Shown: positions 5,385 through 36,846 of the stretch, in pieces
Numbering within the stretch: the stretch's first letter is position 1
Layout of the letters: the number at the start of each line of letters is the position of its first letter
From: an uncultured Curtobacterium sp.
GTDB lineage: Bacteria; Actinomycetota; Actinomycetes; Actinomycetales; Microbacteriaceae
Length of the DNA stretch: 64,000 bases
Direction of reading: 5' to 3'
NCBI GenBank assembly: GCA_913778205.1
Contig: CAJYUW010000006.1
Location: 124,001-188,000 of the forward strand
Position numbers and translations under genes: made by a program
The notes under the pieces: generated by a model
Seen by the model: the letters and a program-made list of their open reading frames with translations, nothing else
Database searches by the model: none
What the model was told of the DNA's origin: nothing

Positions 5385-6730
5385 GAGCGACGCATCCGGT
5401 CGTAGGCCTCGAGCGCGCGCTGCCGGCTCTCCTTGAGGTCGACGACGGGGTCGGGGCGCTCTTCGTCCGCGGGGACCCACCGGCGCACGTACTCGCGGTG
5501 CGGGTCGAAGCGCTCGAGTTGCCGTTCCGGGTTGAAGATGCGGAAGTACGGGGCGGCGTCGAACCCGGATCCGGCGACCCACTGCCAGTTGCCCGGGTTG
5601 TTCGCGGCGTCGGCGTCGACGAGGGTGTCCCAGAACCACTGTTCACCGACCCGCCAGTCGACGAGCAGGTTCTTCACGAGGAAGCTGCCCGTGGCGAGCC
5701 GCACGCGGTTGTGCATCGCACCGGTGTGCCAGAGCTCGCGCATGCCGGCGTCGACGAGGTCGAACCCGGTCGTGCCGGTCCGCCACGCCGCGATCTCGGC
5801 GTCCGCGGGCTCGCGCCACGGGAAGGCGTCGAACTCGCGACGGACGTTGACCGTCGCGATGTCCTCGCAGTGGTAGTGCTCGTTCCAGTTGAACTCGCGC
5901 CAGGCGAGCTGCCGGAGGAACGCCGGCGCCTGCTGTCGTCGCGACGCATCGAGCTGCCCGTGCAGGCGGTGCCACACCTGGTACGGGCTGATCTCGCCCC
6001 ACCGGAGGTGCGGCGAGAGGCCACTGGTTGCGTCCACCGCGGGCTCGTCGCGCTGGTCGTAGTCCGCGAGCGCGTGCTCGACGAAGTGCTCGAGGCGGCG
6101 GTGTGCGCCGAGCTCGCCCGGCGTCCACGCGTCGCGGAGGCCGCCGGCCCAGTCGGGCGCCGTGGGGAGGAGGCCCCAGTCGTCGAGGTCGTCGCCGGCG
6201 ACGTCGGCCGGCGCCGGGAGGTCGCGCGGCTTCGGCAGCGGGTGCCGCGGCTCGGGCATCGCCTGCGCTGCCCGCCAGAACGGCGTGAAGACCTTGTAGG
6301 GCGCACCCTGCCCGGTCGTGACGGTCCAGGGCTCCCAGAGCAGGTTCGCGGCGAAGCTGTGGGCGTCGACGCCCCGGTCGTGCAGGGCGGACTTGATGCC
6401 GGCGTCGACGTCGCGTTCCGCACGCCCGTACCGGCGGTTCCAGTAGACCGCGTCGGCCCCGGTCTCCGCGACGAGGGCGTCGACGACGTCGGCCGCCGCG
6501 CCCCGGCGGAGCACCAGTCGGGAGCCGCGGTCGCGCAGTGCCGCGTCGAGCGCGGTCAGGGAGCCGTGCAACCACCAACGGGCGGCTGCGCCGACGGGCC
6601 GGATCCCCGCCGACTCGTCGTCGAGGACGTACACGACCGTGAGGGCGCCCCCGTGGTCGATGCCCGCCCGCAGTGCCGGGTTGTCCGCGAGCCGGAGGTC
6701 GTCGCGGAGCCAGACGATCGCGCCGCTCAC
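5381..6730 (-). CDS. phrB: Deoxyribodipyrimidine photolyase (cryptochrome/photolyase class I)
   Basis: The 449-residue flavoprotein reverses UV-induced pyrimidine dimers using blue light. It opens with IVWLRDDLRLADNPAL (antenna Rossmann domain). The FAD domain shows APAFLRQLAWREFNW, MRELWHTGAMHNRVR and NPGNWQWVAGSG, all in register with CPD photolyases. Length is normal. The start is GTG 6730, overlapping the marR stop as GTGA. Light and oxidative-damage functions sit close together here: sodA is 3.2 kb away. Confidence 0.95.
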   Translation of the reverse strand: MSGAIVWLRDDLRLADNPALRAGIDHGGALTVVYVLDDESAGIRPVGAAARWWLHGSLTALDAALRDRGSRLVLRRGAAADVVDALVAETGADAVYWNRRYGRAERDVDAGIKSALHDRGVDAHSFAANLLWEPWTVTTGQGAPYKVFTPFWRAAQAMPEPRHPLPKPRDLPAPADVAGDDLDDWGLLPTAPDWAGGLRDAWTPGELGAHRRLEHFVEHALADYDQRDEPAVDATSGLSPHLRWGEISPYQVWHRLHGQLDASRRQQAPAFLRQLAWREFNWNEHYHCEDIATVNVRREFDAFPWREPADAEIAAWRTGTTGFDLVDAGMRELWHTGAMHNRVRLATGSFLVKNLLVDWRVGEQWFWDTLVDADAANNPGNWQWVAGSGFDAAPYFRIFNPERQLERFDPHREYVRRWVPADEERPDPVVDLKESRQRALEAYDRMRRS

Positions 6731-7209
6731 ACGGAGGCCGTGTCGGGAGCGGGGCGACGGCCCGCGGAGCCGCTGCCGGCCGCACGGCGGACCTTCGTGC
6801 ACAGCTCGGTGAGCGTGCGGAGCTCGGCGTCGGTGAGCCCGGCGCCGAGCTGGCTGGCGATGCTCGCGGCGTGCTGCACCGCCACGGACCGGTACACGTC
6901 GAAGCCGTGCGGGGTGAGCGCCACGTACACGCCGCGGGCGTCCGTCGGGTCCGGCTGCTTCTCGACGATGCCGCGGGACGCGAGCCGGTCGACGAGGCGA
7001 CTGACGCTCGGCTGGGTGAGGAGCAGGTGTCCGGTGAGGTCGCGCATGCGGGAACGGCGACCGGGTTGGGTCGAGAGGTTGAAGCAGACGTCGTACTCGT
7101 TGAACGAGATCGCGCCGCCGGGGAACTCGGCGTTGAGGTTCCGCATCACCTGCACCTGCGCACGGAACAGGGACTCCCATGCCGTGACCGCAGTGGCCTT
7201 GTCACTCAC
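6727..7209 (-). CDS. MarR-family transcriptional regulator
   Basis: This 160-residue winged-helix protein has LTQPSVSRLVDRLASRGIVEK as recognition helix, followed by a DPTDARGVYVALT wing, both diagnostic of MarR. Its own start is GTG 7209 with GGAGG upstream. It heads the marR-phrB-hydrolase operon through a GTGA overlap and so probably autoregulates all three genes. The long 5' region contains a hairpin at 7299-7330 and a GTTAC-type direct repeat. Ligand unknown. Confidence 0.9.
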   Translation of the reverse strand: MSDKATAVTAWESLFRAQVQVMRNLNAEFPGGAISFNEYDVCFNLSTQPGRRSRMRDLTGHLLLTQPSVSRLVDRLASRGIVEKQPDPTDARGVYVALTPHGFDVYRSVAVQHAASIASQLGAGLTDAELRTLTELCTKVRRAAGSGSAGRRPAPDTASV

Positions 7210-7298: not shown

Positions 7299-7423
7299 GA
7301 GGGCCGGCCGTCCGAAGACGACCGGCCCTCTCCCTTGCACCAAGAGTGTCCTGCAATCACATTCCACAGGCGGTGCCACAGCAAACACTGCCTGCAGACA
7401 CGACTGTATAACGAAGCGGTAAC
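7299..7423. promoter_or_regulatory. Structured gap upstream of marR with MtrA-like direct repeat
   Basis: The 286-bp gap 7210-7495 has no gene. It holds a 9-bp stem hairpin (7299-7330, GAGGGCCGG arm) and an imperfect hairpin near 7370-7397 (CAGGCGGTG arm). At 7408-7423 there is ATAAC-N6-GTAAC, an 11-bp-period direct repeat like the one before the M23 gene. The region is less GC-rich than its surroundings. Confidence 0.45.
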
Positions 7424-7495: not shown

Positions 7496-8263
7496 TCAGA
7501 ACAGGTCGGGCGAGGGCGTCGACGCGTACCGCACGGCCACGTCGGCGTGACGGTCGAACCGGTAGCCGACGCCGCGCACCGTACGGACGATCTCCTCGAA
7601 CGCGCCGAGCTTCGACCGGAGCCGCCGGACGTGCACGTCGATCGTGCGCTCGTTCGGGGTCTCGTCCTCACCGTCCGACCACAGGCCGTCGATGATCGCG
7701 GAGCGGTCGACCGTGCGGCCCTCGCGGAGCACGAGGAACTGCAGCAACTCGAACTCCTTGTAGGTCAGGGGCGCGGGCTCGCCGTCGAGCGTCACGCGCT
7801 TGCGGGAGATGTCGATGACGACGCCGGTCTCCTCGGGCTCAGGCTTCTCGGCCTGCTTCCGCGCGGCCACGGCGGAGCGGTCCTGCAGAGCGAGCCGGAC
7901 CACGTCGACGTCGCGCCCGCCCGACCCCTCGGCGGCCACGGCGACCGCTGCGTACGTCTCCGACGTCGGGACGAGCTGCGCGGTCAGGGCCTTGAGCTGC
8001 TCGACGACCGCCGCGAGCGTGGTCCCGGCGGCAGCGGCCTTCGCCTCGTCGATCCCGACGTAGAGGGCGAACCCGCGGGCCTCGGTGCCCTCCGGCAGGG
8101 CACGGTTGCGCTGCGGTGCGACGACCGGGCTGGTCGGGACCGGGCTGGCCTGCGGGGTGACCGGCTGGCGGCGGGGGCGCAGCGGGGTCACGGTGCCGAG
8201 GTCGGTCGGCACGGGCGCCGAGGCGCGGAGCGGGGTGCGGGGCTGGGCGATGGTGAGCGACAT
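7496..8263 (-). CDS. OmpR/PhoB-type winged-helix protein lacking a receiver domain
   Basis: The 255-residue protein has a Pro-rich N-terminal tail (about 1-60) and an unrecognised middle domain (about 60-150). The C-terminal OmpR/PhoB DNA-binding wing (150-240) shows LTYKEFELLQFLVLREG, NERTIDVHVRRLRSKL and VRTVRGVGYRF. There is no phospho-acceptor receiver domain, so it is not a classical response regulator. The ATG has a GGAG site. Its mRNA probably begins 340 nt upstream at a leader-peptide gene, suggesting leader-controlled expression. Target genes unknown. Confidence 0.8.
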   Translation of the reverse strand: MSLTIAQPRTPLRASAPVPTDLGTVTPLRPRRQPVTPQASPVPTSPVVAPQRNRALPEGTEARGFALYVGIDEAKAAAAGTTLAAVVEQLKALTAQLVPTSETYAAVAVAAEGSGGRDVDVVRLALQDRSAVAARKQAEKPEPEETGVVIDISRKRVTLDGEPAPLTYKEFELLQFLVLREGRTVDRSAIIDGLWSDGEDETPNERTIDVHVRRLRSKLGAFEEIVRTVRGVGYRFDRHADVAVRYASTPSPDLF

Positions 8264-8503
8264 GGCTGGTTCTCCGGGAGGAAGGTCGCGGTGCTGCTGA
8301 CGGTGCGACCGGTGTCGGATGCGTCGGCCCGGGTACGGCGGTCGGCCGAGGAGTCCCTGCGGTCCTGCTGCGGACCGGGGAGCCCGGGGGTGCGGGGCGC
8401 GCGACGTCGGACGGCTCGCGTCGTCGACGTGCGGGTCACCCCGGGGATCACGCCTGCGCGACGGGGGTGGGGTCGCGGGGGATCCGGCTGGAACGGGTGC
8501 CGA
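8264..8503 (-). other. Long untranslated leader of the winged-helix gene
   Basis: Between the small peptide stop (8504) and the winged-helix ATG (8263) lie 240 nt with no credible gene on either strand. The stretch is very GC-rich with several possible stems and no clear terminator T tract. If the upstream promoter serves the regulator gene, this is leader RNA where attenuation or translational control could act. Confidence 0.5.
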
Positions 8504-8605
8504 TCAGGCACACATTCGACAACGCATGACCGACATCGCCGGCATCATCATGCCGGCGGTCCCCTGTGCCTCGATGAGGACGCGGGTGGACACGGTTGCA
8601 GTCAT
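8504..8605 (-). CDS. Leaderless Met/Cys-rich small peptide (possible leader peptide)
   Basis: This is a 33-codon gene starting at ATG 8605, six nt after a -10 box CATACT that is 18 bp from a consensus -35 TTGACA, so translation should be leaderless. The peptide starts MTATVSTRVLIEAQ and ends MMMPAMSVMRCRMCA: six of the last fifteen residues are Met and two are Cys. The codons for AGMMMPA form an 8-bp-stem hairpin (8538-8557). The shape suits an attenuator or sensing leader for the downstream winged-helix gene. I do not recognise it as a described family. Confidence 0.6.
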   Translation of the reverse strand: MTATVSTRVLIEAQGTAGMMMPAMSVMRCRMCA

Positions 8606-8611
8606 GGCACG

Positions 8612-8658
8612 AGTATGGGTGGGATACCAATGCGGTGTCAACCGTCCGCGCGGACGGT
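8612..8658 (-). promoter_or_regulatory. Promoter with 18-bp palindromic operator for the small peptide
   Basis: On the minus strand, TTGACA (8641-8636), an 18-bp spacer and CATACT (8617-8612) form a strong housekeeping promoter. A perfect 18-bp palindrome with arm ACCGTCCGC covers 8641-8658 and shares one base with the -35 box. That placement fits a repressor site. Confidence 0.65.
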
Positions 8659-8680: not shown

Positions 8681-8752
8681 GACGGACGGGAGGCCCGTGG
8701 CGGATCCGCCACGGGCCACCCGTCCGTCCGGTGGTCGCGGAGCGACCGCCGG
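8681..8752 (-). terminator. Hairpins after upp
   Basis: A perfect 22-bp palindrome (8694-8715, arm CCCGTGGCGGA) is flanked by inverted GGACGGG/CCCGTCC. It is followed by a second stem at about 8728-8752 (arm CCGGTGGTCGC, one mismatch). It lies just past the upp stop and insulates upp from the small-peptide promoter. It is a variant of the GGGAGGC palindrome family. Confidence 0.7.
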
Positions 8753-8755
8753 TGC

Positions 8756-9391
8756 CTACTCGGCGAGGCCGTACAGGCGGTCGCCCGCGTCGCCGAGACC
8801 GGGGACGATGTAGCCGTTCTCGTCGAGCTTCTCGTCGAGGGCGCCGAGCACGATCGACACGTTGCGGTCGCCCACCGCCTGCTCGACGGCGTCGAGGCCC
8901 TCCGGTGCGCCGAGGATGCACACGCAGGTGACCTCCTCCGCGCCGCGGTCGAACAGGAAGTCGATGGCGGCGGCCAGGGTGCCCCCGGTCGCGAGCATCG
9001 GGTCGAGCACGAAGCACTGCCGGCCGGAGAGGTCGTCCGGGAGGCGCTCCGCGTACGTCTGCGGCTCGAGGGTCTGCTCGTTGCGGGCCATGCCGAGGAA
9101 CCCGACCTCGGCCGTGGGGACGAGCTTGACCATCCCCTCGAGCATGCCGAGGCCCGCGCGGAGGATCGGGACGACGAGCGGACGCGGCTTGGCGATGGCG
9201 ACGCCCATGGTGTGGGCGACCGGCGTGTCGATCGGCGTCGCGGTGACGCGGACGTTCCGGGTGGCCTCGTACGCCAGGAGCGTCACGAGCTCCTCGGTCA
9301 GGGCGCGGAACGTCGGCGAAGGGGTCGTCCGGTCGCGGAGCACCGAGAGCTTGTGCGTGATGAGCGGGTGGTCGGCGACGTGGACTCGCAT
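8756..9391 (-). CDS. upp: Uracil phosphoribosyltransferase
   Basis: The 211-residue enzyme makes UMP from uracil and PRPP in pyrimidine salvage. It starts [20 protein letters not shown], has [13 protein letters not shown], and carries the PRPP loop [12 protein letters not shown] with uracil-binding [14 protein letters not shown] at the C-terminus. Length is normal. A -10 box TAGGCT (9399-9404) sits 7 nt before ATG 9391, so the message is probably leaderless. It diverges from tadA with only 40 bp between starts. Confidence 0.97.
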
Positions 9392-9431: not shown

Positions 9432-9899
9432 GTGGAAGCACCAGCCGCCCGCCCCTGGACCGCAGCCATGGAGGCCGCCCTCGTCGAGGCACGGGCCTGC
9501 CGCGCCACGGGCGACGTCCCGGTCGGCGCGGTCGTCGTCGACGCCTCCGGGAGGGTCGTCGCGACGGGGCGGAACGAGCGCGAGGCCCGTCAGGACCCCA
9601 CCGCCCACGCCGAGGTGCTCGCGCTCCGAGCCGCGGCGGCGGTCACGGGGGACTGGCACCTCGCGGAGCACACGCTCGTGGTCACGCTGGAGCCCTGCGT
9701 CATGTGCGCCGGGGCGATCCTCGCGGCGCGGGTGCCCCGGGTCGTGTTCGGGGCGTGGGACCCGAAGGCGGGCGCGACGGGCAGCGTGTACGACGTCGCC
9801 AGGGACCGTCGGCTGCCGCACCGCTCGGAGGTCGTCGGCGGCGTGCTCGAGGCGCCGTGCGCGGCGGTCCTCGACGAGTTCTTCGCCGCGCGTCGCTGA
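9432..9899 (+). CDS. tadA: tRNA adenosine(34) deaminase
   Basis: The 155-residue zinc deaminase converts A34 of tRNA-Arg(ACG) to inosine. Zinc and catalytic motifs are intact: TAHAEVLAL (His and the proton-shuttle Glu) and [10 protein letters not shown] (two Cys). The start is GTG 9432 with AGGAGAG upstream. A role in nucleobase deamination cannot be excluded for this family, but length and motifs favour TadA. It ends at a strong hairpin shared with the convergent membrane-protein gene. Confidence 0.92.
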
Positions 9900-12430: not shown

Positions 12431-13141
12431 TCACTCGAGCGCTGCGAAGCGCTCCAGGTCGGCGGTCGCGCCGGAGACGATGATGACGTCCTCCTCGCCG
12501 ATCACGCTCTCGGGCGTGGCCGGGACGAAGGCCTGGCCTGGTGCCTTGATGCCGAGCACCGTGAGGCCGAACCGGGTGCGGATGACGGTCGTGGCGAGGT
12601 CCTTGCCGCGCACGGCGCGCGGCGGGAACATCTTGACGACCGCGAAGTCCTCGTCGAACTGGATGAAGTCGAGCATGCGGCCGGACACCAGGTGCGCCGT
12701 CCGCTCACCGGCCTCGCGCTCGGGGTAGACGACGTGGTTGGCGCCGATGCGCGACAGGATGACCCCGTGCGAACGGCTGATCGCCTTCGCCCAGATCTGC
12801 GGGATGCCGAGGTCGACGAGGTTCGCCGTGATGAGGACGCTCGACTCCAGGTCCGAGCCGACGCCGACGACCGCGATGGCGAAGTCCTGCGCGCCGATCT
12901 GGCGGAGGGCGTCCATGTCGGTGGCGTCCGCCTGCACGGCGTGGGTCACCCGGTCCGACCACTTCTGCACGAGCCCGGCGTCGGTGTCGACCACGAGCAC
13001 CTCGCGGTGCTGCCGTTCGAGCTGCCCGGCCGTCGCCGCGCCGAAGCGGCCGAGCCCGATGACCAGGACCGGTGCGTCGTGGCTGACGGCGCCGGCGAGC
13101 GGGTGGGTGGGCGGCAACGGCGAGCGGGTGCGGTCAGCCAA
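12431..13141 (-). CDS. ktrA: Potassium uptake regulatory subunit KtrA/TrkA
   Basis: The 236-residue cytosolic RCK protein gates the KtrB channel in response to nucleotides. The N-terminal Rossmann domain carries LVIGLGRFGAATAGQL and the acidic strand end VVDTD. A C-terminal RCK_C domain follows (about 155-236). The likely start is TTG 13141, overlapping the ktrB stop by 8 nt (TTGGCTGA); no ATG or GTG precedes the fold. The pair is one operon. Confidence 0.92.
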   Translation of the reverse strand: MADRTRSPLPPTHPLAGAVSHDAPVLVIGLGRFGAATAGQLERQHREVLVVDTDAGLVQKWSDRVTHAVQADATDMDALRQIGAQDFAIAVVGVGSDLESSVLITANLVDLGIPQIWAKAISRSHGVILSRIGANHVVYPEREAGERTAHLVSGRMLDFIQFDEDFAVVKMFPPRAVRGKDLATTVIRTRFGLTVLGIKAPGQAFVPATPESVIGEEDVIIVSGATADLERFAALE

Positions 13142-16546: not shown

Positions 16547-17887
16547 TCAGGGGGTGAGGCGCGTCGGGCCGCGGAAGAGGTACGTGACCTCGCGGATCGA
16601 CGGCTCGTGGAGCGCGAGCATGAGCACGCGCGCGAGGCCCATGCCGAAGCCGCCGTGCGGCGGGACCCCGTAGCGGAAGAAGTCGAGGTACCAGTCGATC
16701 TCGGCGGTGTCGAGACCCTTCTCCTCGGCCTGGGCCGCGAGCCGGTCGACCCGGTGCTCGCGCTGGGCGCCCGTCGAGATCTCGGCACCGTTGAACAGCA
16801 GGTCGTAGCTGTTGGTGAGCGTCGGGTCGTCCTCGTGGCGCATGTGGTAGTACGGCCGGATCGAGGCGTCGTAGTCGGTCACGAACACGAACTCGGAGCC
16901 GTGCGTCTCCTTCGCCCAGGCGCTCACGCGGCGCTCGCCCTCGGGGTCGAGGTCGCCGTCGGCACGCACGACGTCGTAGCCGCTGTCGGCCACGATCTTC
17001 CGGGCCTCCGCCAGGGTCACGCGCGGGAACGGCGCGGTCGGCACGACGAACTCGAAGCCGAAGACGTCCTCGATCTCCTTGCCGTACTTCTCCTTGACGG
17101 CCGTGAACCCGGCGACGAGGACCTCCTCGTGCATGGCCATGACGTCCTGGTGCGACTCGACCCAGGAGATCTCGGCGTCGACGCTCGTGAACTCGGTCGC
17201 GTGTCGGCTCGTGAACGACGGGTCGGCGCGGAAGGCGTCCGCGATCTCGAACACCGCGCCGAACCCGGCTGGCTGCGCCATCTGCTTGAAGTTCTGCGGC
17301 GACTGAGCGAGGTACGCGGTCGTCTCGAAGTACTCGAGCTGGAAGAGCTCGGCGCGCGACTCGGACGCCGACGCCATGAGCTTCGGCGTGTGGATCTCGA
17401 TGTAGTCGCGGTCGACCCAGTACGAGCGGAACGCGTGCTCCATGGTCGTCTGGATGCGGAAGATGAGGTTCTGCTTGCGGTTGCGGAGGTCGAGGAACCG
17501 CCAGTCGAGGCGCTTGTCGAGCGACGAGTCGTCGGCGATCGGCGTCTCCGGGATCGCGGCGCTGACCACCTCGAGCGAGCCGACCTTGACCTCGAGGCCA
17601 CCGAGCTTGACCCGCTCGTCGTGCTTGAGCGTGCCCTGGACGTGCACGAACGTCCCCTTGGCCAGGCCCGAGATCTCGTTCGTGGTCGCGAGGGCGGCGC
17701 GGGCGGCGTCGTCGCCGTCCTCGGCCTCGCGCGTGGCGGGGTTCACGAGCTGTGCGGCGCCGGTCTCGTCGCGGAGCACGACGAACTGCACCTTCTTCTG
17801 GTCTCGGACGGTCTCCACCCATCCGGCGACGGAGACGGGTCCGTCGGGGAGCGCGGCGAGGTCGGCGATGCGGGTGCGTTCGATCAC
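16547..17887 (-). CDS. aspS: Aspartyl-tRNA synthetase, short non-bacterial-insert type
   Basis: The 446-residue class II synthetase charges tRNA-Asp. An OB-fold anticodon domain (1-105; SVAGWVETVRDQKKVQFVVLRD) is followed by motif 1, motif 2 (FRADPSFTSRHATEFTSVD) and motif 3 (GFGMGLARVLMLAL). It lacks the GAD insertion of typical bacterial AspRS, so it is the archaeal-like form, often non-discriminating with tRNA-Asn. The start is GTG 17887; TAGACT (17896-17901) lies 8 nt upstream, so it is probably leaderless. Confidence 0.95.
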   Translation of the reverse strand: MIERTRIADLAALPDGPVSVAGWVETVRDQKKVQFVVLRDETGAAQLVNPATREAEDGDDAARAALATTNEISGLAKGTFVHVQGTLKHDERVKLGGLEVKVGSLEVVSAAIPETPIADDSSLDKRLDWRFLDLRNRKQNLIFRIQTTMEHAFRSYWVDRDYIEIHTPKLMASASESRAELFQLEYFETTAYLAQSPQNFKQMAQPAGFGAVFEIADAFRADPSFTSRHATEFTSVDAEISWVESHQDVMAMHEEVLVAGFTAVKEKYGKEIEDVFGFEFVVPTAPFPRVTLAEARKIVADSGYDVVRADGDLDPEGERRVSAWAKETHGSEFVFVTDYDASIRPYYHMRHEDDPTLTNSYDLLFNGAEISTGAQREHRVDRLAAQAEEKGLDTAEIDWYLDFFRYGVPPHGGFGMGLARVLMLALHEPSIREVTYLFRGPTRLTP

Positions 17888-18041
17888 GGGGGTCGAGTCT
17901 AACCGGGTCGGTCCGGGGCCGCTCCTCCACATCGGACGCGTCGGGTCGGACCGTTCACAGGTCTGCCTGGAGGCGCGGGTCGCCGCGTCCCGGTCCGTAG
18001 CGTCGTCGACGTGGCCGGGTCGCGAGTTCGGGGGAGGTCCC

Positions 18042-18380
18042 ATGACGGCAGGGACGGAGGGGCTCGCGGCCTGGCCGCCTGCGGCGGTGGCGGTCGTCGT
18101 GGCCGCAGTGTGCACGGCCGCGTTCACGCTGCTCGTGGCGTTCGTCGGGGGCGTGTGGGCCGTGATCCGGTGGCGACGGGACGTCGCTCGTGAGGAACGT
18201 GATCGGGCGTGGTCGAGGTTCGTCTGGATCGTCGACCAAGCCTGCGATGCGGACACCGGGCGAACGGAGATCGGGACCATCGGCGCCGATGCGATGTACG
18301 ACATGCAGATGCTTCGCGAAGACGACGCCGTACTCGGCACCATCGTGCTGGGCCTCATCACGGGGAAGGAAGAAGGATGA
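18042..18380 (+). CDS. Single-pass membrane protein, function unknown
   Basis: The 112-residue protein has one long hydrophobic helix (about 9-43), then a charged helix WRRDVAREERDRAWSRFVW and a soluble tail of about 60 residues. A strong GGGGGAGG site precedes the ATG. Its stop overlaps the next start as ATGA. No homology recognised. The tail runs QACDADTGRTEIG and later LREDDAVLGTIVLGL. Confidence 0.7.
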   Translation: MTAGTEGLAAWPPAAVAVVVAAVCTAAFTLLVAFVGGVWAVIRWRRDVAREERDRAWSRFVWIVDQACDADTGRTEIGTIGADAMYDMQMLREDDAVLGTIVLGLITGKEEG

Positions 18381-35769: not shown

Positions 35770-36846
35770 TTGAACCCGAGCGTCCCGGTCGCACGTCGTG
35801 CACCGAGTCTCCGCGCCTCGCTGGGCATCGGCGAACGGCTGTTCGCGTCCCCCGCTGACCGCCGGTTCATCACCGCGGTGGACGACGGGCTCGAGGTGGT
35901 CGAGGCCGCCCTCGAAGCCGCCATGCACTCGGCCGACACCCTCGCCGACACGACGAGCCGCTACCTGCTCGCCGCGGGTGGCAAGCGCATCCGGCCGACG
36001 CTGACGCTGCTCATCGCGCAGCTCGGCCGCGGCGTCACGGACGAGGTCGTCAAGGCGGCGGTGAGCATCGAGACGACCCACCTCGCGTCGCTCTACCACG
36101 ACGACGTCATGGACGAGGCGCCCGTCCGCCGCGGGGTCCCGGCAGCGCACGTGACCTACGGCAACAACGTCGCGATCCTCACGGGCGACCTGCTGTTCGC
36201 CCGTGCGAGCCTCATCACCGCCGATCTCGGGGTCGAGGGCATCCGCATGCAGGCCGAGACGTTCCAACGGCTCTGCCTCGGGCAGCTCCACGAGACGACC
36301 GGCCCGCGTGAGGGCCAGGACGCCGTCGAGCACTACATCCAGGTGCTCAGCGACAAGACCGGTTCGCTCATCGCGACGGCCGCCCGCGCCGGTGTGCTCT
36401 TCTCCGGGGCGGACCGGGCGTACCTCGAGCCGGTGGCCGTGTTCGGCGAGAAGGTCGGCGTCGCGTTCCAGCTCGTGGACGACGTGATCGACCTCGCCCC
36501 GGCGGGCGACCGTACGGGCAAGATCGCCGGGAACGACCTCCGTGCCGGGGTCGACACCCTGCCCCTGCTCCACCTGCGCGCCCTCGCGGCGACGGACGCC
36601 GACGCCGCCGCGCTGCTCCGACGCATCGAGCACGACGTGAAGGACGCGCCGGACGACGCCGTCGACTCCGAGCCCTACCAGTCCGCGGTCGCCGCGCTCC
36701 GCGAGCACGAGGCCACGGCGCAGACCCGGGCCGTCGCCTTGCGGTGGGCCGAGGAAGCCGTGGACGCCCTGCGACCACTGCCCGACGGCACCGTCAAGAA
36801 GGCCCTCACCCGGTTCGCGGAGTCCGTCGTCGACCGCAGCCGCTGA
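35770..36846 (+). CDS. Long-chain polyprenyl diphosphate synthase
   Basis: The 358-residue trans-isoprenyl synthase builds the menaquinone side chain. Both Asp-rich motifs are present, LYHDDVMDEAPVRRG and FQLVDDVIDLA, with GGKRIRPTL upstream. Residues before the first DDxxD are small, consistent with a long product, but exact length is not predictable. The start is TTG 35770 after CGGAG. It is downstream of menG in the same transcript. Confidence 0.93.
   Translation: MNPSVPVARRAPSLRASLGIGERLFASPADRRFITAVDDGLEVVEAALEAAMHSADTLADTTSRYLLAAGGKRIRPTLTLLIAQLGRGVTDEVVKAAVSIETTHLASLYHDDVMDEAPVRRGVPAAHVTYGNNVAILTGDLLFARASLITADLGVEGIRMQAETFQRLCLGQLHETTGPREGQDAVEHYIQVLSDKTGSLIATAARAGVLFSGADRAYLEPVAVFGEKVGVAFQLVDDVIDLAPAGDRTGKIAGNDLRAGVDTLPLLHLRALAATDADAAALLRRIEHDVKDAPDDAVDSEPYQSAVAALREHEATAQTRAVALRWAEEAVDALRPLPDGTVKKALTRFAESVVDRSR

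Follow-up and report, generated by a model that had tools for sequence, protein, structure and literature searches.

What does a very short reading frame, rich in methionine and cysteine codons and provided with its own promoter, do in front of the gene of a winged-helix regulator? This question is raised by a locus in the window, the 64,000-nucleotide stretch of an uncultured Curtobacterium contig. The initial annotation had described a promoter, an ATG at 8605, a 33-codon product, a hairpin, a palindrome, a 240-nt leader and a receiver-less winged-helix (wHTH) protein, all of which are present, and the locus is laid out as follows.

8756..9391, minus strand: upp, the gene upstream of the leader ORF, encoding UPRTase
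8681..8728, no strand assigned: inverted repeat of 24 nt, located between upp and the promoter at 8612..8641
8641..8658, no strand assigned: perfect 18-bp palindrome ACCGTCCGCGCGGACGGT, which shares one base with the -35
8612..8641, minus strand: sigma-70-type promoter TTGACA-N18-CATACT, which would start a leaderless transcript
8504..8605, minus strand: leader ORF of 33 codons, MTATVSTRVLIEAQGTAGMMMPAMSVMRCRMCA, leaderless by promoter geometry
8538..8557, minus strand: hairpin GCCGGC-ATGATGAT-GCCGGC with the ATGATGATG Met codons in its loop
8507..8521, minus strand: core TGT CGA ATG TGT GCC (Cys-Arg-Met-Cys-Ala), in the C-terminal part of the leader ORF
8264..8503, minus strand: 240-nt leader between the ORF and the wHTH gene (C 0.475, G 0.292, no T-run)
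8491..8501, minus strand: GGCACCCGTTC, the proximal partner that MFE folds predict for the core in Curtobacterium
8311..8325, minus strand: GACGCATCCGACACC, distal complement of the core, with the genus consensus GACGCATTCGACAC
8272..8275, minus strand: GGAG, which from its sequence is probably the wHTH ribosome binding site
7496..8263, minus strand: gene of the receiver-less wHTH regulator (255 aa), with a conserved N-terminal domain and a PhoB/GlnR-like DNA-binding domain

Between positions 7300 and 9500, TTGACA-N18-CATACT is the sole promoter-like site (one found, against a mean of 0.0 in shuffles), and the ATG at 8605 stands six bases past its -10. For comparison, contigs were scanned with the wHTH protein, and the best 80 of 196 loci, which by their titles we take to be Curtobacterium and other Microbacteriaceae genera, were kept as relatives; two of these (L076 and L102) end at a contig edge, leaving 78 testable. 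Promoters were parsed in the window and 75 relatives, with L080 and L088 left unparsed. In these 76 loci the spacer is 17-19 nt long and the ATG lies 6-7 nt past the -10, and the -35 reads TTGACA in 74 of them. The geometry in the 76 parsed loci predicts that the ORF starts at or near the transcription start, and the leaderless arrangement first proposed for the window alone would accordingly extend to its relatives.

In 74 of the 75 loci tested, the C-terminal motif of upp is found in the 1.5 kb that precede the leader ORF, and the inverted repeat at 8681..8728 is probably the upp terminator. No Rfam family matches the leader ORF; the search gave 16 matches, all below the gathering score: 15 are to miRNA models and lie at or close to the upp inverted repeat, and the remaining match is on upp. 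On the other side, upp is adjoined by a tadA-like gene (9432-9899, plus strand; 145.9 bits against a cut-off of 150 for NF008113), close to the leader with its CGA-dependent core described below.

The composition of the leader ORF is unusual. After the start, its 32 codons include 6 Met codons (P=6e-6) and 2 Cys codons (P=0.007), both values being computed against the codon usage of 37 predicted window genes. Conservation is stronger evidence for the ORF than this composition. The C-terminal core is found in all 78 testable relatives among the best 80 of 196 loci, and in 77 of them it is in frame with the start; the sole exception, L062, carries a 1-nt deletion. In this locus, from C. flaccumfaciens UCD-AKU, one base is missing from a G run and the leader ORF is broken, through either a sequencing error or a real loss. 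The ORFs vary in length from 81 to 120 nt, stop included, and the core stands two to four codons ahead of the stop. The most conserved part is Cys-Arg-Met with Arg encoded by CGA, present in 78/78 intact ORFs (the window and 77 loci) under a script that accepted any CGN-box Arg codon at that position, and the start ATG is likewise invariant in all 78. The Cys codons of the core alternate between TGT and TGC, and its last residue is variable. A repeated unit, MPVLMMPVLMMPV, is seen in the leader ORF of L179 and looks like a duplication of the Met segment.

The initial annotation had tied the ORF to the wHTH gene, which in the window lies 240 nt away on the same, minus strand, and this synteny extends through the family. 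A profile of the peptide matches 140 of 199 family genomes at E <=0.001, and 129 of the 141 matches lie 56-453 nt upstream of a wHTH gene on the same strand; the remainder comprise ten matches without a listed wHTH row, one at a contig edge and one weak second match. Twenty listed genomes have the wHTH gene and no profile match. In one of these, the wHTH gene starts 82 nt into its contig; the other 19 were read, and all have a shorter or diverged ORF with CGAATG, which was itself the search target in one of the scans, and 16 of the 19 show CGA in a search without a CGA requirement. The promoter was parsed automatically in 13 of the 19 diverged loci. Cys precedes CGA in 15/19 of the diverged ORFs and occurs near the end in 19/19, and a near-end Cys is present in each of the 97 Microbacteriaceae cores. 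Within its own genome, the leader-ORF peptide has one convincing match (the second has E 0.48), and the joint profile likewise has one.

The downstream gene is nearly universal in the family, the wHTH protein being found in 193 of the 199 Microbacteriaceae genomes searched (E <=1e-30), and the window protein is 98% identical to its C. luteum counterpart. Pfam detects only Trans_reg_C (residues 161-236) and no phospho-receiver domain of the OmpR/PhoB response regulators; the N-terminal domain, with the motif ARGF-LYVGIDE, has no Pfam match. The DNA-binding domain is nearest to 8hml, the best solved match (E 4.5e-21), and to 8hig; 8hml is listed as OmpR family, and we take it to be GlnR. The protein therefore has its C-terminal DNA-binding domain in common with GlnR/PhoB-type regulators, whereas it lacks their receiver and carries an N-terminal domain of its own. 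A MarR-type regulator gene (Pfam; 6727-7209, minus strand) lies shortly downstream of the wHTH gene, and a gene of this type is found there in 5 of 14 loci read by eye (L079, L080, L097, L105 and L107). No sulphur genes were seen among the downstream neighbours of the wHTH gene that were read by eye.

Is the peptide itself under selection? For the two Curtobacterium length classes, the in-frame pN/pS comes to 1.02 (21 distinct sequences) and 1.17 (12), values that most other frames do not exceed, some of these going down to 0.59; in two non-Curtobacterium classes it is 0.63 (13 sequences) and 0.82 (16), four small length classes (2, 1, 4 and 2 sequences) having been left out. Thus, in Curtobacterium, pN/pS gives no sign of amino-acid selection outside the core. 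The initial annotation had named a lack of synonymous bias as evidence against its reading, and this holds in part: the bias is missing from Curtobacterium, while ratios below one are found elsewhere and the frame is kept in 77 of 78 relatives. Since those 77 all combine the start, the open frame and the core, the ratio counts against a peptide product more than against the leader ORF itself. Because pN/pS is close to 1 in Curtobacterium and the hairpin arms co-vary (see below), the comparison points more to a regulatory leader than to a functional micro-peptide.

The hairpin over the Met codons, read off the window alone at the outset, withstood an arm-swap control. Across 82 distinct regions, the arms score 18.78 with their own partners and 17.49 (sd 0.23) with swapped ones, and the observed value is reached in 0/5000 permutations, as is also the case for the 62 unique arm pairs. 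By subset, it is reached in 89/5000 for Curtobacterium alone and in 1/5000 for the rest alone; it should be noted that this test can be inflated by sequence relatedness. The MMM run is missing from several genera. The element is possibly a pause or synchronising hairpin. The same control was applied to a hairpin at the stop codon, which looks convincing by eye in many loci and failed as a family-wide element: stems with their own downstream sequence score 12.04 and those with foreign sequence 12.30 (108 distinct regions), and permutations reach the observed value in 4142/5000 cases, or in 2031/5000 when Curtobacterium is left out (93 regions). A long-range pairing of the core with CATTCG was also considered. 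The distal copy in the window has one mismatch, and CATTCG occurs in the leader of 37/41 Curtobacterium, 9/19 Cryobacterium and 4/7 Agromyces loci, in 0/11 loci of a mixed other group and in 0/22 streptomycete-type stretches. As a general mechanism, this pairing was rejected on the last two counts; it is genus-level or patchy.

The core is made up of rare codons (TGY-CGA-ATG). Among the 37 predicted window genes, CGA makes up 5.5% of Arg codons, and TGT is used for 6 of the 50 Cys codons. In the genome, 46 tRNA genes were found, with the Arg anticodons ACG, CCG, CCT and TCT and the Cys anticodon GCA; a TCG anticodon is not among them, in a draft genome whose set may be incomplete. Since no TCG anticodon was found, inosine wobble should be the only way to read CGA. 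Such reading of CGA follows established decoding rules and requires inosine-34, the product of the enzyme TadA. Met and Cys both qualify as the sensed amino acid, the conserved codons of each being clustered near the stop, and on this sequence evidence conservation alone cannot separate the two.

The 240 nt between the ORF and the wHTH gene contain no promoter-like site in any of 78 leaders, in agreement with the initial annotation. Nor is there a terminator-like site between 7300 and 9500, where the competing intrinsic terminator of a trp-type attenuator was not found, or a run of five T in any of the 78 leaders. All 78 are C-rich and G-poor, with C minus G above 0.10, and for 76 of them the value belongs to the highest 5% within the respective locus. 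The window leader, at 0.183, is among the highest 0.2% of window stretches of equal length, and it has the highest value of the 27 regions examined upstream of window genes, which were predicted crudely. A bias of C over G is typical of Rho-loading regions and is only a correlate of Rho sites, and because of this bias the leader at 8264..8503 is regarded as a candidate Rho-loading region. C-rich, G-poor regions are also found upstream of 16547..18361 (minus strand, 0.150), 35878..36846 (plus strand, 0.138) and 12431..13000 (minus strand, 0.128), and these regions may likewise be Rho-attenuated leaders.

The palindrome had been presented as part of the system, and this could not be upheld beyond one genus: ACCGTCC-N-GGACGG is found in 37/41 Curtobacterium and 0/37 other loci. 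Its sole perfect copy in the genome is that at 8641-8658, and near-copies with at most 2 mismatches occur at 7 other places, of which two (L265 and L270) look intergenic and five lie inside predicted ORFs, by crude ORF calls. As a system part or regulon marker the palindrome was therefore rejected; it is possibly an operator in Curtobacterium only. One near-copy is at the 3' end of an ORF that, from its translation, is presumably nusB-like. Another, with two mismatches (G000:C39:102627-102644; L265 1028-1045), stands 25 bases upstream of the ATG of a gene that we take from its translation to be GlnR-like, so that two regulators with related DNA-binding domains share the palindrome in their own genome. 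In the -35/-10 spacer, at window positions 8621-8628, GGTATACC is found in 30/41 Curtobacterium loci and GGTATCCC in 10/41, including the window, and GGTATACC is found in 0/37 non-Curtobacterium loci; this motif is a possible second operator.

Outside the Microbacteriaceae, the wHTH N-terminal domain was found in six of the 296 genomes of the class (two in family f2, one in f6 and three in f26). In the two f2 genomes, which belong to the same order, the ORF, taken from GTG, ends in MRCCRMHA with TGT CGA ATG. In f26, the wHTH gene is preceded by the peptide VPRLLLTQRRAVDLMRVASQLCR, which, with Met for its GTG start, scores 29.7 against the cut-off of 27 of NF042934 ('putative leader peptide') and 32.8, below the cut-off of 45, against NF042933 (Ms5788A Cys-rich leaders); the same kind of regulator therefore follows a leader ORF of a recognised family in f26. 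In f6, the wHTH homologue (L220) was not seen to follow a CGA-AUG ORF, and the script listed none in front of six weaker wHTH matches (L254-L259). A second, diverged f26 regulator with a similar-looking N-terminal domain (L261; G251:C19) follows the short ORF MVGRVRTTVRFGCLVGDGCRPAACR, possibly another Cys leader. The window peptide itself matches none of the NCBIfam cysteine-leader models NF042933, NF042934 and NF042936 at E <=10; NF042934 has one match in the window's own genome, below its cut-off (E 0.09), and exceeds the cut-off once in the 12 genomes searched. Class-wide, the first peptide profile (A1) finds nothing below E 1e-4 outside the family (best 2.1e-4). Other groups were reached only with the joint profile (A6), which gives one match per matching genome among 292 genomes and E <1e-4 only in f1, f2 and f25.

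The initial annotation had known of no described system with this layout, and this does not hold. A leaderless leader, MetL (…ARCMCRRMCAF), is described upstream of metNIQ in Streptomyces lividans TK24 in PMC8079986, according to which a typical Rho-independent terminator was not found for metL; MetL itself is a predicted attenuator. Leaderless mycobacterial polycysteine sORFs, with Cys codons near the stop, are placed upstream of a gene under Cys-responsive attenuation in PMC4633059. Among the matches listed from the open-licence literature, no paper on the Microbacteriaceae leader ORF was found. Family f25 is taken to be streptomycetes, judged from MetL. Relatives of MetL were found in f25, and 32 loci in all gave 21 distinct leaders; the others are nine repeats, L290, which has no such ORF, and L307, which is an f2 genome. 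CGAATG encodes the last Arg-Met in 21/21 distinct MetL, and in all of them TTTACT lies a few bases before the ATG. Cys stands directly before CGA in 19/21, compared with 78/78 of the named ORFs. The leaders downstream of MetL are 163-265 nt long with C minus G of 0.127-0.23, and in the one locus tested the following gene is MetN-like (TIGR02314, E 1.3e-113; its 379.6 bits are below the cut-off of 499.7). When MetL and the Microbacteriaceae peptides were compared with hhalign, only the core aligned (probability 72, E 3.4e-5, 14 columns).

Based on the results presented above, the ORF is very probably a leaderless regulatory leader ORF. On balance, the whole would best be explained by Met- or Cys-sensing attenuation, through which the leader ORF would set the expression of the downstream wHTH gene. 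The signal is likely methionine or cysteine, and the early guess of a sulphur-amino-acid signal is strengthened by the position of streptomycete MetL before a methionine importer. Methionine is placed slightly ahead because metNIQ is the target of MetL and AUG never changes, while the Cys before CGA changes in 4/19 diverged ORFs and 2/21 MetL. In such a mechanism, the hairpin would let RNA polymerase wait for the ribosome. When charged Met-tRNA or Cys-tRNA is scarce, the ribosome would stall at the core just before the stop, shielding the stop codon together with the first part of the C-rich leader; Rho would be kept off and transcription would continue into the wHTH gene. With an ample supply of the amino acid, the ribosome would release, Rho would load and the transcript would end early. 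Rho is tentatively preferred as the output over pairing of the ribosome binding site, and in Curtobacterium a second layer may be added by pairing of the core with a segment past the stop or with another that in most cases lies 35-51 nt ahead of the wHTH gene. In this scheme, the wHTH protein would regulate sulphur amino acid metabolism or the response to shortage.

Four other readings have to be weighed. In the first of them, pairing of the core near the wHTH start would hide the ribosome binding site, and a stalled ribosome would open this pairing. Translational attenuation of this mode is proposed for mycobacterial cysteine leaders and genes in PMC13236596. Curtobacterium MFE folds pair the core with GGCACCCGTTC past the stop or with CGCATTCGACAC mostly 35-51 nt before the wHTH start, and two genomes of another family of the same order have GCATTCG in the leader and GCATTC directly next to the wHTH ATG. 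However, the core complement is missing in many genera and in all 22 streptomycete-type leaders, the distal element lies clear of the ribosome binding site and the swap control of the proximal hairpin was negative, so that this reading is considered unlikely. Alternatively, the product could be a trans-acting micro-peptide, for example one with Cu-binding or thiol-reactive Cys and Met residues that acts on the wHTH N-terminal domain. Such a product would fit the C-terminal CCRMC, which offers soft-metal ligands, the presence of one or more Cys close to the end of all 97 Microbacteriaceae cores and the partial amino-acid similarity across genera (e.g., RxLTSFEA-G), whereas an in-frame pN/pS of about 1 in Curtobacterium, single Cys positions that become Ser, His, Pro or Arg in some genera and an Arg codon that is always CGA, which a peptide cannot explain, make it improbable.

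That invariant CGA, found in each group with the core, might itself be the point: the core could sense the capacity for inosine-34 decoding, that is, TadA activity or the supply of tRNA-Arg ICG, rather than Met or Cys. The absence of a TCG anticodon from the 46 tRNA genes found and the tadA-like gene beyond upp agree with this, but AUG is equally invariant, MetL precedes a methionine importer and the tadA neighbourhood has no tie to function; sensing of this kind appears quite improbable. Finally, the hairpin support, the near-invariant TGYCGAATG and the Curtobacterium pN/pS near 1 could be read as the marks of a functional RNA or DNA structure in which the ORF is incidental. This is the most improbable reading of all, given that the promoter-placed start and the core stay in one frame in 77/78 relatives despite lengths of 81 to 120 nt, that the Cys codons vary synonymously between TGT and TGC and that the leader ORF has no Rfam match. 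Attenuation by a ribosome sensing Met or Cys in the leader ORF is therefore retained as the preferred reading.

If so, an orphan regulator present in 193 of 199 Microbacteriaceae genomes gains a testable input, namely, methionine or cysteine supply as read by the ribosome. Moreover, the predicted streptomycete MetL leaders and this regulator, so far separate, are now linked. The CGA-AUG signature is a handle for finding further members, as well as a way into how a slow, inosine-read codon sharpens amino-acid sensing. It is conceivable, as a tentative view, that the CGA-AUG leaders form a distinct, unnamed class of actinomycete attenuators, placed on the methionine importer in streptomycetes and on the orphan wHTH gene in the Microbacteriaceae. 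In this class, a rare wobble-read UGY and an inosine-read CGA would park the ribosome with AUG next, before the stop and the C-rich Rho-loading leader. The wHTH protein would then be the Microbacteriaceae master regulator of sulphur amino acid supply.

Among known systems, MetL is one of the closest in kind. It is described as leaderless, as is predicted for the Microbacteriaceae ORF, and like the latter it has a Met/Cys-rich end with C-R-M-C and CGA-AUG and is followed by a C-rich leader. It differs in that it has about 28 codons, compared with 33 in the window, usually has one codon more after the core, lacks the MMM run and has a methionine ABC transporter as its target, whereas that of the Microbacteriaceae ORF would be a wHTH regulator; the window ORF stands before the wHTH gene, not before metNIQ. 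Polycysteine leaderless sORFs of mycobacteria were reportedly described by Canestrari in 2020. These sORFs (NF042933 Ms5788A, NF042934 and NF042936 Ms4527A) resemble the window ORF in their leaderless start, which is predicted for the latter, and in their Cys codons near the stop, and we know of no CGA-AUG core among them. The published examples of mycobacterial Cys leaders precede cysteine-metabolic or hypothetical genes, in contrast to the regulator behind the window ORF. The proposed output is similar to that of tnaC of E. coli, where a ribosome that stalls close to the stop of the leader peptide shields the sequence behind it from Rho. There, free tryptophan is sensed through nascent-chain arrest, whereas sensing at the codon level is proposed for the Microbacteriaceae ORF, with a putative Rho step. 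By analogy, the Microbacteriaceae leader would work like MetL and the mycobacterial Cys leaders while falling outside the NCBIfam cysteine-leader models. This kind of leader peptide has already been described; what is new is its regulator target and the CGA-AUG signature.
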